Source of the DNA: Sideroxydans sp. | GTDB lineage: Bacteria; Pseudomonadota; Gammaproteobacteria; Burkholderiales; Gallionellaceae | Assembly: GCA_011620315.1 (NCBI GenBank) | Contig: WOZO01000198.1 | Span: 1 to 32,446 of the forward strand | Direction of reading: 5' to 3' | Length of the DNA stretch: 32,446 bases | Shown: piece after piece, positions 7,077 through 13,792 of the stretch | Numbering within the stretch: position 1 is the first letter of the stretch | Layout: each line of letters starts with the position of its first letter | Notes under the pieces: model-generated | Database searches by the model: none | What the model saw: the letters and a program-made list of their open reading frames with translations, nothing else | Told to the model about the DNA's origin: nothing | Program-made: the position numbers and the translations under genes

Positions 7077-7502
7077 ATGGCAATAGCGTGGCGAGAACAA
7101 CTGAGTGTCGGCAACAACATCATCGACGTTGACCACAAATACCTGATCGAGATCATCAACAAGGTCGAGGTATGTCTGGCGAAGAGGGATATGCCCGCGC
7201 TGAAAGCGGAGCTGCAACGCTTGCACGATTACGCGCTACTGCATTTCGACCGCGAAGAGAAGATCGCCATCGCGGTCGATTATGAGCAGACCCCAGGCTT
7301 GCATCAGTCGCATCAGGAACTGGTGGAGAAACTCGGGAAGATGCAAGCGGATTTCGTGACTGCCGAACAAACGTGGTCACCGGAGCTGACCAAAGGCTTT
7401 GCCGACTTCCTGCGCAACTGGCTGATCGATCACGTCATCAAGGAAGATCTGCTGATGAAGCCGGCCCTGCAGAAGCATTCTCCCGCTTTTGCTCCCAGAT
7501 AA
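7077..7502 (+). CDS. Bacteriohemerythrin
   Basis: Single-domain non-haem di-iron O2-binding protein of 141 residues. The start at 7077 is set by GGAGAG six bases upstream and by the family opening AIAWREQLSVGNNIIDVDH. Likely iron ligands are H20, H56, E60, H76 and/or H79, H119 and D124 (H-x4-D spacing as in the family). One oddity is that the central pair reads HQSH (three apart) instead of the usual HxxxH. Roles suggested for relatives are O2 storage, delivery or sensing in microaerobic bacteria; it converges on the riboswitch-controlled Cys-protein gene. No output domain is attached. Confidence 0.92.
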   Translation: MAIAWREQLSVGNNIIDVDHKYLIEIINKVEVCLAKRDMPALKAELQRLHDYALLHFDREEKIAIAVDYEQTPGLHQSHQELVEKLGKMQADFVTAEQTWSPELTKGFADFLRNWLIDHVIKEDLLMKPALQKHSPAFAPR

Positions 7503-7566
7503 AGCTCGGTGCCCGTTCGTTTCGCAGTGACACATCGCCCGGTCTGCCGCCGTATCTGCCTGTCAC

Positions 7567-7749
7567 TCAGGTTGGTTGGGCTTTTGTCGAATGCAGTTCG
7601 CAGACCGCGCTGTTGTCGGCAGGCATGATGGCCAGATGCGGAATGCATACGACCTTATCCTGCCGCTTTCCTTTTCTGATTGTATGGATGCAATTCGCGC
7701 AGGTTGGTCGCGAGGCATCCTTGTCTTGCTGACGTGATTTTTTCATCAT
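7567..7749 (-). CDS. Small four-cysteine protein, riboswitch-led
   Basis: A 60-residue basic protein with four cysteines: C17 and C20 (TCANC), C35 (VVCIP) and C50 (AVCEL). The pattern suggests a zinc-ribbon or other small metal site; I do not recognise a named family. The ATG at 7749 (a second one follows at 7746) is preceded at 5 bases by GGGGAG, a strong ribosome-binding site, which is the main reason to believe the gene. About 110 bases upstream on the same strand lies a class I c-di-GMP riboswitch with its own promoter. The gene is therefore very likely c-di-GMP controlled. There is no signal peptide or membrane segment. Confidence 0.75.
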   Translation of the reverse strand: MMKKSRQQDKDASRPTCANCIHTIRKGKRQDKVVCIPHLAIMPADNSAVCELHSTKAQPT

Positions 7750-7857
7750 GCGCGTCTCCCCGGTTCGTTCAAGCGACCTCTGCGCGCGGGTGCGCGACAG
7801 ATATGTATTCGGCGACCGACAGGGAAGAAGTGACTAAGGCATGGCAAGAATGTCCAT

Positions 7858-7932
7858 GTCGCAGTCCCGCTACCGTAGTTTCCCTTAGGCCGGAGACTTT
7901 GCGCCTATGCTTTTCAGCATATTTGCCAAGTG
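7858..7932 (-). promoter_or_regulatory. Class I c-di-GMP riboswitch (GEMM-I)
   Basis: Read on the minus strand the segment matches the GEMM-I aptamer landmarks in order. First comes a 5' P1 strand CGCA, then GGCAAA. A hairpin TATGCT-GAAA-AGCATA with a GAAA tetraloop follows, then GGCGCAAAG, CTCCGGCCTAA and CTACGGTAGCGGGACTGCG. The last element ends with the P1 partner TGCG. The Vc2 riboswitch of Vibrio cholerae has the same blocks (GGCAAA, GAAA loop, ACGCAAAG, CTCCGGCCTAA, GGTAGCGGGG). The expression platform lies between 7857 and 7750; I see a weak CATGG/CCATG hairpin at about 7854-7836 but no terminator U-tract, so control of translation is at least as likely as attenuation. Confidence 0.9.
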
Positions 7933-7938
7933 CGCAGG

Positions 7939-7967
7939 ACCTTATCCCATTGCTGGAGTATGGTCAA
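7939..7967 (-). promoter_or_regulatory. Promoter of the riboswitch transcript
   Basis: TTGACC (7967-7962) and TAAGGT (7944-7939) with exactly 17 bases between them, on the minus strand. A start about 7 bases on falls at roughly 7932, the first base of the aptamer P1 strand, which supports the call. The 7750-8102 stretch without genes is therefore accounted for by leader, riboswitch and promoter. Confidence 0.6.
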
Positions 7968-8102
7968 TTGCGGCGAGCTCAGGACCGGTTCCGGATGACA
8001 CCGGATTGCTTTTATCGCAGTGGGCTACGCCGTAAAGATCAGGCTGGGGCATATGCCGAGGTGCACGGGGAGGTGATGCGCTACCGGCAGGGGGCTGCGA
8101 GA

Positions 8103-9800
8103 CTAAGCTTTGTCCGCTTTGCAGTGATACATCGCCTGGTCGGCGGCGGCGATCAGCGTGGAGGATGTGCTGCCGTCCTGCGGAAAGCGGCTGTGGCCGA
8201 TGCTGCCGCCGGAGCGCAACTCGATATCCCGGTACGGAATGGGCGTTGCCAGAGCGGTCTTCACCTTGAGCACCATCTGCTCGATCTGCGCGCCGTTCCA
8301 CTCCCCCTCGAACAGGATGATGAACTCGTCGCCGCCCAGTCGCGCCGCCGTGTCGGATTCGCGCAGCAGGGTGCGCAGTCGCTGTGCGACCGCCTGCAAT
8401 ACCGCATCGCCTGCCCCGTGCCCGTGCGTGTCGTTGATGGTCTTGAAGTTGTCGAGGTCGATGAACAGCAACAGCAATTGCTGGTTCTGCCTCTTTGCGC
8501 GTGCCAGCGCATGTTCCAGCCGACCGAGGAACATGCGCCGGTTTGGCAGGCCGGTCAGGCTGTCGTGGCTGGCCAGATGGTCGAGCATCTCCTGCTGCAT
8601 CTGCAGGTCCTCGATCTGATGATTGATCTGTTTTTCCATCTGCATGATGCTGTACGCCAGTTCGCCGATCTCGTCTTTGCGTTCCACCGGCAGCGAACCG
8701 ATCTTGCCGTCGACTGAAAAACGTCTGACTTCTTCCACGATGCGATACAGGGGACGGTTGAATGCGCGCGCCAGAAAGATGGCGAGCAGGACCGACAGCG
8801 CGCTGAAGCTCAGCACGATGCCCAAGGTGATCGAGGCGAGCTGTTTGCTTTCCGATAGCACGCTCGCCAAAGGCTGCGACAGCCCCAGGATGAAACCGTC
8901 GCCGTCTTGCATACCGGGGATTCGCCTTTGATCAAAGGCGGCCACCAATGCCTCCGCAGAGGAGGGCAGGTTGGCGGTGACCAGATGCCAACTTTCACCC
9001 GCTTGCTTGGTCAGTAACGCGGCGATGGCGGGGAACTCATCCTGCACGCGGGCGTCCCGCCCGCGGTCGAAAGCGAAGCTGCGCGACGGGTCGGGGTGGA
9101 TCAGGTAGTCGCCCCGTGTGTTTGCCAGATACAGTTTCAACTCGGGCGGCAGGTCGGCGGCCAGTTGCGCGAACAGTCCCTGCAGGTCGACGTTGACCAC
9201 GATCAGGCCGATGGCGTGCCGGTTCGCATCGTGGATCGGTGCAGCGACCTGCAGTGCGGGGCGGTCCTCGCCGGCATGGGCGCCCGTCTCGTGGTTGATC
9301 ATGGCGCGCGAGACATAGATGCCGTCGCGCGGAAGCCGCAGGGTCTCGAACACATAAGGATAGTGGCCCTTCTCCTGCAGATCGTCGCCGCCGATGCGCA
9401 GCAGGCCGCCCATGCCGCGATCAACACGGATGCGCTCCATGCCGTGATTGGCCGATTCGATCAGGCGGATCTGGAAATATTCCGCGTGCACCGACATCAA
9501 TCCCGCGAATATCATCGCCACGTTATCCTCGCCGAGCGCCTGAAAACCGGGCGTGCTGCGTTGCAGGATGCGCGCGGCCTGCGGGTGCTGTGCCATCAGG
9601 CGCACATCGGCTTTCACGTCGTTCAGGGCAACCGTCACCTGCCGCATCAACACATTGGTGGCCGTGAGCAGGCGTTCTTCGGATGAATTCACCAGCTGCT
9701 CGCGGCTGGCCTGATAGGCGAAGTAACCGGTCAGGCCGGTGCCGAGCAGGCCGACCATGACCAGCACCAGACCGAGACGCCAGGCGATGGGGAATCTCAT
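8103..9800 (-). CDS. Membrane diguanylate cyclase (periplasmic sensor-HAMP-GGDEF)
   Basis: 565-residue c-di-GMP synthase. Membrane segment 1 is at 7-29. A periplasmic sensor of Cache-like appearance spans about 30-320 (PALQVAAPIHDANRHAIGLIVVNVDL, DYLIHPDPS). Membrane segment 2 is at about 322-344, a HAMP-like linker at 345-398 and the GGDEF domain at about 405-565. The signature GGDEF (489-493) is intact, and the inhibitory I-site RESD (480-483) sits exactly five residues before it, so an active, product-inhibited enzyme is expected. Its ATG overlaps the TGA of the upstream PotD-like gene (ATGA), implying one transcript and balanced translation. The two probably form a ligand-sensing pair in the periplasm. 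Confidence 0.93.
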   Translation of the reverse strand: MRFPIAWRLGLVLVMVGLLGTGLTGYFAYQASREQLVNSSEERLLTATNVLMRQVTVALNDVKADVRLMAQHPQAARILQRSTPGFQALGEDNVAMIFAGLMSVHAEYFQIRLIESANHGMERIRVDRGMGGLLRIGGDDLQEKGHYPYVFETLRLPRDGIYVSRAMINHETGAHAGEDRPALQVAAPIHDANRHAIGLIVVNVDLQGLFAQLAADLPPELKLYLANTRGDYLIHPDPSRSFAFDRGRDARVQDEFPAIAALLTKQAGESWHLVTANLPSSAEALVAAFDQRRIPGMQDGDGFILGLSQPLASVLSESKQLASITLGIVLSFSALSVLLAIFLARAFNRPLYRIVEEVRRFSVDGKIGSLPVERKDEIGELAYSIMQMEKQINHQIEDLQMQQEMLDHLASHDSLTGLPNRRMFLGRLEHALARAKRQNQQLLLLFIDLDNFKTINDTHGHGAGDAVLQAVAQRLRTLLRESDTAARLGGDEFIILFEGEWNGAQIEQMVLKVKTALATPIPYRDIELRSGGSIGHSRFPQDGSTSSTLIAAADQAMYHCKADKA

Positions 9801-11254: not shown

Positions 11255-13792
11255 TCAGAGTTCTCCGGACCGGGGAAATGTTTCGTTCGTCCGCATCCGA
11301 TCCAGCAATTCCTCGAATGCCCCGACTGGAAGCGGTTTGCCGAACAGGTATCCCTGATAGGCCATGCAGCCGTTCTGGCGCAGGAAGCTGAGCTGGTCTG
11401 TTGTCTCCACGCCTTCCGCGATCACGTTGAGATTGAAATGGCGTGCCAGACTGATGATGGTCTGCACCATGGTCGCATCGTCGATATCGCTGGTGATGTT
11501 GCGCACAAAACTCTGGTCGATCTTGATCTGGTCCAGCGGCAGTTGCTTGAGATAGGCCAGCGAGGAATAGCCCGTTCCGAAATCGTCCAGCGACAGGCGG
11601 ATGCCCTGCGCCTTCAGCGCATGCATCTTGCCGATCACATCGGACACGTCGCTCAGCACCACGCTCTCGGTCAGCTCCAGCTTCAGGCGCGACGGGACAA
11701 CCTGGTACTTGTCGATCATTTGCGCGACGTGCTGCACGAAGTCGTGGCGTTTGAACTGTTGCGCGCTGACGTTGATGGCGAGCTTGAGATCGCGCGTGCG
11801 TTCGTGTTCGCTCCAGCTTGCCAGCTGTTTGCATGCCGTTTCCAATACCCAGTTGCCGATCTCCTGAATCAGCGAGCTGTCTTCGGCGATGGGGATGAAG
11901 CGGGCAGGCGGGATCATGCCGCGTTGCGGGTGGATCCAGCGTATCAGTGCTTCCGCCCCCAGCGGGCGCAGCGCGCTGTCCAACTGCACCTGGTAATGCA
12001 ACTGGAACTGTCCGTTGGGCAGTGCTTGGCGCAGTTCCGCTTCCAAGGCGGCGCGGCTCTCTACTTCGAACTGCATGGCGGGGTCGAAGAAGCGCACGGC
12101 ATTGCGTCCCGATTCCTTGGCCTGATACATCGCCATATCCGCGTGTTTGAGCAGATCGTCGACGCTTTCCCGGTCGCCTCGGTACAGGCACACCCCTATG
12201 CTCGGCGAGCTGTGGTACTCGTTTTCGTTGAGGAGATAGGGCCGGGCCAGTGCGGCGCGGATCTTTTCGGCGATCACAGCCGCTTTTTGCGACGCCTCGC
12301 TGCTATCCGCGTCCAGCTCCTCGATCAGGATGACGAACTCGTCACCGCCGATGCGCGCCACCGTGTCCATATCGCGCACGCAATGCTGCATACGCTTGGC
12401 AACCTCTATCAGCAACAGATCGCCATGGTCGTGTCCCAGTGTGTCGTTCAGTGTCTTGAAACGGTCCATGTCGAGGAACAGCAGCGCGCCGTGCAGACGG
12501 TTGCGTGCCGATGCCGCAACCGACTGCTGCAACCGTTCCAGCAGGAAGCGGCGATTGGGCAGCTTGGTCAGCGTGTCGTAGAACGCGAGGCTGAAGATCT
12601 CCTCTTCCGCCTGTTTGCGGTTGGTGATGTCGCTGAAGATCGCCACATACTCGGTGTTCTCACCTTTGGGGTTCTTCACTGCGGTGATGGTCAGCCATTT
12701 CGGGTAGATCTGTCCGTTCTTGCGCTTGTCCCATATCTCGCCGCTCCAGGAGCCATGCTCCAGCAGATGCCTCCACATCGCCGCATAGAATTCCCTGCCG
12801 TGACGCCCGGAACTCAGGATGCGCGGATTCTTGCCCAGCACATCTTCGGCGCTGAAGCCGGTGATGACCTGAAAAGCATGGTTGACGCGGATGATGTTGC
12901 CGTTGGCGTCGGTGATCATGATCGCTTCATGGGTCTCGAACGCGATGGCCGCGACGCGCAACTGGCTTTCGGTGCGTTTGCGTTCGTCGATCTGCTGCTG
13001 CAGCAGCAGGTTGTTCTGCAGCGTCCTCGCCTCGATCTTCCTGGCGGTCTGCGCGATCAGCCACAGTGCCAGGCTGTATCCCGCCAGACGCTGTACGTGC
13101 CATCCCCACCACGGCCAATCCCAGATGCTGGAGTATGCGAAGGCGAGTGCCGCCGTGGACAGTATGAGGCACTGGAAAGAGAACAGCAGATCCTCGGCTT
13201 TGTCCGAAGCACGGTAGGCGAGATACAACCTCGCGGCAGCGGCCAGCAGGAACATCCCGCCGACGATGTTCAACGCCACGGCGGCGGAAGTGAATTCGCC
13301 CGATTCGAGCATAAGGGGGAGCTGCTCGGGCAAGAGCAGCGAATAACCGCCCAGCGCGACCGCGATCAAAACCGCTGCCGACGGCAAATGGCGCAGTGCC
13401 GGTTGGAAGGCGTGGGACGGCAGCCAGACCAGCGCGAACAGCAGGCTGCCGACAACGGTCGCCAGACTATGCAGCCATACGAACTGATTGCCGACCGGGA
13501 TCAGCGCATGCTGGCCATCCAGAAGTCCCATGGCCAGCAGCGCGGCCGCGATCCGGTGATTGAAGCTGCTGCCTTCGCCGATGATGTTCAAACGCAGCAA
13601 CAGATAAGCGACCATCGCGGAGATGACCGCGCCGGCCATCTCGATCGCACCGTGCAATGCCGGATTTGGCAGCAGCATGGGTTTGCCCAAGCCTTCCAGC
13701 GCCATGCTGAGTGCTTGCACCAGCAGGCCGAAGGCGAAGACGGCGGCCATCAGCATGCGCAAGCGTAAGGAAGCAGAGCGGGAGGTCGACAT
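11255..13792 (-). CDS. Membrane PAS-GGDEF-EAL c-di-GMP signalling protein
   Basis: 845 residues. The N-terminal 250 residues hold about seven to eight membrane segments forming a MASE-like integral sensor. A short coiled coil (about 252-278), a PAS domain with PAC tail (about 280-395; IMITDANGNIIRVNHAF, EYVAIFSDITNRKQAEEE), a GGDEF domain (about 400-570) and an EAL domain (about 580-835) follow. GGDEF (482-486) and the I-site RDMD (473-476) are intact. The EAL domain keeps EAL (614-616), DDFGTGYSS (736-744) and IAEGVE (791-796), so both synthesis and hydrolysis of c-di-GMP are possible; net direction cannot be told. The gene stands alone, about 0.4 kb upstream of the binding protein-GGDEF operon on the same strand. 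Confidence 0.94.
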   Translation of the reverse strand: MSTSRSASLRLRMLMAAVFAFGLLVQALSMALEGLGKPMLLPNPALHGAIEMAGAVISAMVAYLLLRLNIIGEGSSFNHRIAAALLAMGLLDGQHALIPVGNQFVWLHSLATVVGSLLFALVWLPSHAFQPALRHLPSAAVLIAVALGGYSLLLPEQLPLMLESGEFTSAAVALNIVGGMFLLAAAARLYLAYRASDKAEDLLFSFQCLILSTAALAFAYSSIWDWPWWGWHVQRLAGYSLALWLIAQTARKIEARTLQNNLLLQQQIDERKRTESQLRVAAIAFETHEAIMITDANGNIIRVNHAFQVITGFSAEDVLGKNPRILSSGRHGREFYAAMWRHLLEHGSWSGEIWDKRKNGQIYPKWLTITAVKNPKGENTEYVAIFSDITNRKQAEEEIFSLAFYDTLTKLPNRRFLLERLQQSVAASARNRLHGALLFLDMDRFKTLNDTLGHDHGDLLLIEVAKRMQHCVRDMDTVARIGGDEFVILIEELDADSSEASQKAAVIAEKIRAALARPYLLNENEYHSSPSIGVCLYRGDRESVDDLLKHADMAMYQAKESGRNAVRFFDPAMQFEVESRAALEAELRQALPNGQFQLHYQVQLDSALRPLGAEALIRWIHPQRGMIPPARFIPIAEDSSLIQEIGNWVLETACKQLASWSEHERTRDLKLAINVSAQQFKRHDFVQHVAQMIDKYQVVPSRLKLELTESVVLSDVSDVIGKMHALKAQGIRLSLDDFGTGYSSLAYLKQLPLDQIKIDQSFVRNITSDIDDATMVQTIISLARHFNLNVIAEGVETTDQLSFLRQNGCMAYQGYLFGKPLPVGAFEELLDRMRTNETFPRSGEL

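Follow-up and report, generated by a model that had tools for sequence, protein, structure and literature searches.

The minus strand of the window, a 32,446-nucleotide stretch of a Sideroxydans sp. contig that was analysed in full, carries a complete c-di-GMP-I (GEMM-I) aptamer (Table 1). We consider it very likely that this is a class I c-di-GMP riboswitch and that it belongs to the 5' leader of an mRNA encoding a 60-residue, Cys/His-rich and perhaps metal-binding protein, with control most likely exerted on translation. Judged by its sequence, the element is a genuine and ordinary class I c-di-GMP riboswitch. The aptamer, the placement of its promoter, the hairpin that follows it and its recurrent link to the small gene come directly from the computations; that the aptamer binds its ligand is what we infer from its sequence. 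The riboswitch class is already known, and what is new is the undescribed target gene that this member appears to control. Its value is that of a pointer: it connects c-di-GMP with an undescribed Cys/His mini-protein that, in our searches, was all but confined to the iron-oxidiser family Gallionellaceae, and sister copies of the aptamer extend the connection to hemerythrins.

Table 1. Features at the riboswitch locus, in window coordinates
Feature	Position	Strand	Basis
c-di-GMP-I (GEMM-I) riboswitch aptamer, full length	7857..7937	-	RF01051, 64.6 bits, E 1.2e-10
Sigma-70-like promoter TTGACC-17-TAAGGT (-35 7967-7962, -10 7944-7939)	7939..7967	-	Sequence; position kept in relatives
G corresponding to Vc2 G20 (c-di-GMP versus cGAMP selectivity)	7926	-	RF01051 alignment and base check
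C corresponding to Vc2 ligand-pairing C92	7861	-	RF01051 alignment and base check
Hairpin directly 3' of the aptamer (CATGG...CCATG)	7840..7858	-	Single-sequence folds of 26 loci; pairing above shuffles
Pyrimidine tract, candidate anti-Shine-Dalgarno	7821..7832	-	Folding of relatives
Shine-Dalgarno GGGGAG of the small gene	7756..7761	-	Sequence
Gene under the switch: 60-aa Cys/His-rich small protein, undescribed family	7567..7749	-	ORF, alignment, profile search
Upstream diguanylate cyclase: sensor domain, weak HAMP, GGDEF with RESD I-site and GGDEF motif	8103..9800	-	Pfam; motifs by eye

Aptamer, promoter and adjacent hairpin

When the whole window was scanned against Rfam 15 with cmscan, RF01051 (c-di-GMP-I) matched at 7937-7857 of the minus strand, above the gathering score of 35 bits. 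The match spans model positions 1-87 of 87, uncut, and is the only one in the window at or above gathering level. This is the GEMM-I covariance search that had been proposed in the preliminary description, which placed the aptamer at 7858-7932; the significant match extends 5 nt further 5' and 1 nt further 3'. The sequence blocks listed there indeed follow one another on the minus strand: GGCAAA, a 6-bp TATGCT/AGCATA stem with a GAAA loop, GCGCAAAG, CTCCGGCCTAA and GGTAGCGGGA.

We compared the element with its relatives at 26 loci (24 from the window's genus and two, L197 and L207, from another; the window genome supplies two), of which 13 have the small gene downstream, one as a degraded copy, and 13 a hemerythrin gene. 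Flanking sequence was examined for part of the RF01051 matches listed, so that locus counts are lower bounds, and one locus, L180, was dropped, its aptamer ending at a contig end. Across the 26 loci the aptamer core is near-invariant. Six pairs of the GAAA-capped stem show changes on both sides, and third-stem pairs vary little. The GNRA-capped stem, with its GAAA loop and covariation, and the receptor stem stand at the places expected for RF01051 and appear to be kept by selection; the ligand-contact bases presumably occupy their expected places as well. A promoter-like site upstream and an ORF downstream, alike in relatives, put the element in a predicted 5' leader. It departs from the RF01051 model in being six positions shorter in the third stem, in having no conserved P1 and in carrying an extra hairpin directly 3'.

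The promoter matches 8 of 12 consensus bases and for this reason escaped a strict scan of 7500-8110 (threshold 9 of 12), which listed none. Its position is nevertheless kept: in 25 of the 26 loci, the best-scoring hexamer pair upstream (7 to 11 of 12) has its -10 ending 10-11 nt before GGCAAA. Transcripts start about 7 nt after the -10, and the promoter spacing thus predicts a start at about 7931-7933. The 17-spaced promoter first suggested here is present, and the start assigned to 7932 falls in the expected range.

A closing P1 helix, CGCA/TGCG, had also been suggested and is not supported. Pairing of CGCA (7934-7931) with TGCG (7863-7860) is possible, but only two of the 26 loci have the four pairs complete: the window and G016, whose small protein is the closest. 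The TGCG strand contains C7861, which aligns to the ligand-pairing C, and CGCA begins upstream of the proposed start at 7932; with a start at about 7931-7933, the 5' strand of this P1 would be partly untranscribed. Nor is P1 required for membership in RF01051, because the structure line of the Rfam model lacks such pairs. According to PMC9262584, P1 is important in Vc2 of Vibrio cholerae and went undetected in Cd1 of Clostridioides difficile. Cd1 is thus a precedent for the window, and it likewise has a further stem, HP1, besides P2, P3 and the terminator stem (PMC9262584); Vc2, in contrast, needs its P1, whereas the one proposed for the window is unconserved.

The hairpin 3' of the aptamer folds in the 26 loci taken singly. 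We quantified it with a fixed 8-bp geometry in 64 of 90 aptamer loci, leaving out the 26 with other aptamer forms. In the 58 distinct segments from these 64 loci, 325 of 464 cells were paired, compared with a mean of 285.5 (sd 5.4) and a maximum of 308 over 2000 shuffles; over all 64 loci, slid registers reached at most 54% paired, compared with 70% in the hairpin register. These counts are inflated by kinship among the sequences, yet several pairs persist through different bases (GC/AU, CG/UA). When the 26 related loci were aligned with MAFFT, RNAalifold predicted no pairing beyond the aptamer. MAFFT leaves the hairpin, whose length varies, unaligned; the case for the hairpin comes from the single folds and the shuffle test.

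The small gene and other genes behind the aptamer

As initially described, the aptamer is flanked by the 60-codon ORF and a GGDEF gene. The small gene is the one downstream of the switch (the cyclase is not), starting 107 nt behind the aptamer and preceded by GGGGAG. Its family shares the motif PTCxNCxHT...VVCVPHLKxMP...VCELH; in a 15-member alignment, C17, C20, H22, V33 and C35 are invariant, and V34, H38, L39, P43 and C50 occur in at least 90%. Of the 61 codons, 23 differ from those of G016, 10 without changing the residue; first, second and third codon positions account for 9, 3 and 14 differences, respectively. The excess at third positions fits a coding frame, and the replaced residues indicate that the frame is not strictly held.

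Database searches placed the protein in no known family. Up to an E of 10, neither Pfam nor NCBIfam matched the window protein, which also had no convincing relative in PHROG (best 0.11) or PDB (best 0.27), and the family profile reached at best 0.37 against PDB; one of the 15 members touched DUF7576 (0.00099). Among described zinc-ribbon and iron-sulphur small-protein families we found no match to family or fold, and AlphaFold2 on 14 sequences of the family gave a mean pLDDT of 50.5 and a pTM of 0.22, values too low to inform on the fold. A likeness of its CxxC...C...C spacing to high-potential iron-sulphur proteins was supported by no library search. The conserved Cys/His pattern suggests that the protein may bind metal.

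The family looks lineage-restricted within the genomes searched. A profile search found 30 places in 25 of the 158 Gallionellaceae genomes, the window's own included, two of the 30 being fragments of one gene in G105; a first search had counted 17 of 100 genomes. Across 399 genomes of the order, the profile matched six, five of them Gallionellaceae and one a weak match elsewhere. A pattern scan, a method limited to close relatives, was run over 84,980 species genomes and returned 14 loci, assigned to Gallionellaceae, Gallionella, Sideroxydans, Candidatus Ferrigenium, broader taxa and one Aquabacterium, the last nearly identical to a Gallionellaceae locus. Three candidates (L048, L051 and L052; E 0.00125 to 0.009) were rejected as apparent frames inside one unrelated conserved gene.

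RF01051 itself is more widespread, occurring in 106 of the 158 Gallionellaceae genomes (10 of 15 genera) and in 39 of the 61 nearest genomes, the window's own included in both counts, and in none of 14 control genomes. The aptamer lies just upstream of the small gene at 14 of the 30 places. In 12 genomes of the genus, the window's among them, no plausible ORF comes between RF01051 and the small gene, which starts 97-130 nt after the aptamer; a 41.7-bit aptamer directly precedes it in G150, which belongs to another genus, and in G126 an 80.4-bit aptamer is followed by one 65-aa ORF and then the small gene. At the remaining 16 places, searching the loci for RF01051 up to an E of 1 gave nothing. 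Two individual loci are of note. L207 (G124:C69) combines an intact-looking aptamer, promoter and hairpin with a small gene that has a decayed Cys/His motif, and L046/L079 (G003:C44) holds an aptamer-less homologue of the small gene after a GGDEF gene.

The same aptamer subtype stands ahead of hemerythrin genes at no fewer than 13 loci. Twelve of the 13 downstream proteins match PF01814 (47 to 58 bits); the thirteenth, cut short and named by eye, belongs to the second RF01051 copy of the window's own genome (L080, contig C82, aptamer 12278-12358, 67.7 bits). There the hemerythrin-like frame departs from its relatives after about 14 residues, near the contig end, possibly through the end of the assembly. 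Within the window, a separate hemerythrin-domain gene (PF01814; 7029-7502, plus strand) lies tail-to-tail with the small gene, and G016 has a different frame in that place.

Mode of control and ligand

In the mechanism that we favour, the RNA would begin at its own promoter, a few bases ahead of the conserved aptamer core, and c-di-GMP would dock between the GAAA-capped stem and the receptor stem. Whether the pyrimidine tract and the neighbouring leader mask the Shine-Dalgarno sequence would then depend on the adjacent hairpin and on whether the aptamer is occupied or free. Control is most likely translational because no intrinsic terminator was found on the minus strand of 7500-8110. In this it would probably resemble Vc2, a translational OFF switch, and differ from Cd1, a transcriptional OFF switch with a terminator (both as characterised in PMC9262584).

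Folding of the leaders also favours translational control, since in eight of 12 small-gene leaders the predicted fold, read by eye, joins the Shine-Dalgarno region to a stretch 19-46 nt after the aptamer. The same pairing, again read by eye, appeared in only two of 12 hemerythrin leaders (L072 and L197). In the predicted free-RNA fold of the window itself, the partner of the Shine-Dalgarno sequence is the aptamer, and the pyrimidine tract is unused. The tract pairs somewhat better than a control stretch further down the leader (-12.05 versus -10.82 kcal/mol for small-gene loci, -11.26 versus -8.34 for hemerythrin loci). A locus-specific anti-Shine-Dalgarno pairing was not supported: matched and permuted energies were -12.05 and -11.54 kcal/mol for the 12 small-gene loci (fraction 0.21) and -11.26 and -11.65 kcal/mol for the 12 hemerythrin loci (fraction 0.74). 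Forcing four third-stem pairs shifted the predicted exposure by at most 0.15 in small-gene leaders, mostly downwards, and for the direction of control the folding leans weakly towards OFF over ON.

A c-di-GMP-binding aptamer might instead act through early, Rho-dependent termination of transcription in a C-rich, G-poor leader. Across the 12 small-gene leaders, the 33 nt that begin 18 nt behind the aptamer contain 30-45% C and 9-24% G, a composition that suits such a mechanism, as does the missing intrinsic terminator; most of these leaders, however, are predicted to keep the Shine-Dalgarno region largely covered, and we regard Rho as a possible but clearly less probable agent than translational masking. 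Much less probable still is a decayed or idle aptamer, a functionless relic at the window locus. It could draw on the intact-looking aptamer ahead of a visibly degraded gene copy in G124, on the 16 small-gene places at which the aptamer is absent, and on the changed residue in 13 of the 23 codons that differ from G016. Against this, the window retains an intact aptamer, promoter, hairpin and Cys/His motif, and its small protein shares 78% identity with the G016 protein.

As for the ligand, we take position 7926 to correspond to G20 of Vc2 and position 7861 to its C92, and the window has G and C, respectively, at these positions. GGCAAA, with G at the selectivity position, occurs in all 26 aligned sequences of the subtype. 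Along with the covariance match and the covariation of the GAAA-capped stem, this G upholds the original assignment to the class I c-di-GMP riboswitches. PMC6456294 describes an A at nucleotide 20 in cGAMP switches and the conversion of such a switch to c-di-GMP by an A-to-G change there. That the ligand is 3',3'-cGAMP is thus highly improbable: the GEMM-Ib riboswitches that bind it belong to the same sequence family and are known from Geobacter, an iron-cycling host likewise living on iron (PMC6456294), but neither the window nor any of the 26 aligned sequences has the A of cGAMP switches, all 26 having G.

Neighbouring cyclases and wider setting

The gene upstream of the switch looks like an intact diguanylate cyclase, with a PF00990 (GGDEF domain) match of 160.6 bits and the active-site motif in place. 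The preliminary description saw in the aptamer a sensor right next to its likely source. An intact-looking cyclase does adjoin it, and GGDEF genes are enriched near the subtype, but adjacency does not show that the enzyme feeds the sensor, because the partners vary, the flanks searched at six of 13 small-gene loci showed no GGDEF gene, the window's genome has 36 GGDEF matches and c-di-GMP diffuses. G016 has the counterpart of the window's GGDEF gene; the GGDEF genes of G011, G024 and G030 are divergent (G011 GGDEF-EAL by Pfam, the other two by likeness and a home-made profile), G031 has a divergent PAS-GGDEF gene, and G004 has CBS-GGDEF and PAS-GGDEF genes.

Searching up to 4 kb on either side with a small profile of our own, we found a GGDEF ORF near seven of 13 small-gene loci, with none in the flanks of the other six, and near seven of 13 hemerythrin loci. 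None lay near the 64 other RF01051 loci, for which the span was narrower (up to 1.5 kb upstream and 2 kb downstream). The small-gene loci held eight GGDEF ORFs in 90,634 bases, compared with 1.45 expected at 16 per Mb (536 matches in about 33.5 Mb; Poisson 1.4e-4). When like neighbourhoods were collapsed by eye, four of eight had a GGDEF gene, compared with 0.106 expected for each (P 0.006). Within the narrower span, GGDEF genes were present at 12 of the 26 loci (by eye) and at none of 14 other RF01051 loci of the genus (Fisher 0.003), or at 12 of 24 when the two loci from the other genus were left out (Fisher 0.001). The Fisher comparisons count each orthologue separately, and all these enrichment tests followed sight of the pattern. 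The adjacency reads as a tendency with changing partners, short of proving a private circuit.

More speculatively, and with considerable doubt, the Gallionellaceae may possess a P1-less GEMM-I subtype, with the 3' hairpin stacked in the place of P1, that links c-di-GMP to oxygen and metal handling by switching hemerythrin and a new family of metal-binding mini-proteins. With a GGDEF gene often lying alongside, such a system might serve as a redox adaptor or give local feedback. The 2013 genome paper on Sideroxydans ES-1 and Gallionella ES-2 reports many GGDEF/EAL sensory genes in both and 14 hemerythrin genes in ES-1 versus three in ES-2, the reason for the excess in ES-1 being stated as unknown (PMC3770913). 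The word riboswitch is absent from the main text of that paper, and a search of the open literature, with subscription papers mostly outside its scope, found no paper joining a c-di-GMP riboswitch with hemerythrin or with Sideroxydans.

Other genes, too, follow these aptamers. In other genera, the protein encoded behind the subtype is about 500-590 residues long and, as judged by eye, starts like a lipoprotein (L159-L163, L171, L173, L177, L186, L188, L194, L196 and L201). At L083 and L087 (G004 and G024), a longer form of the aptamer, with a 103-nt match, stands ahead of a flagellar gene that we take to be MotB-like.
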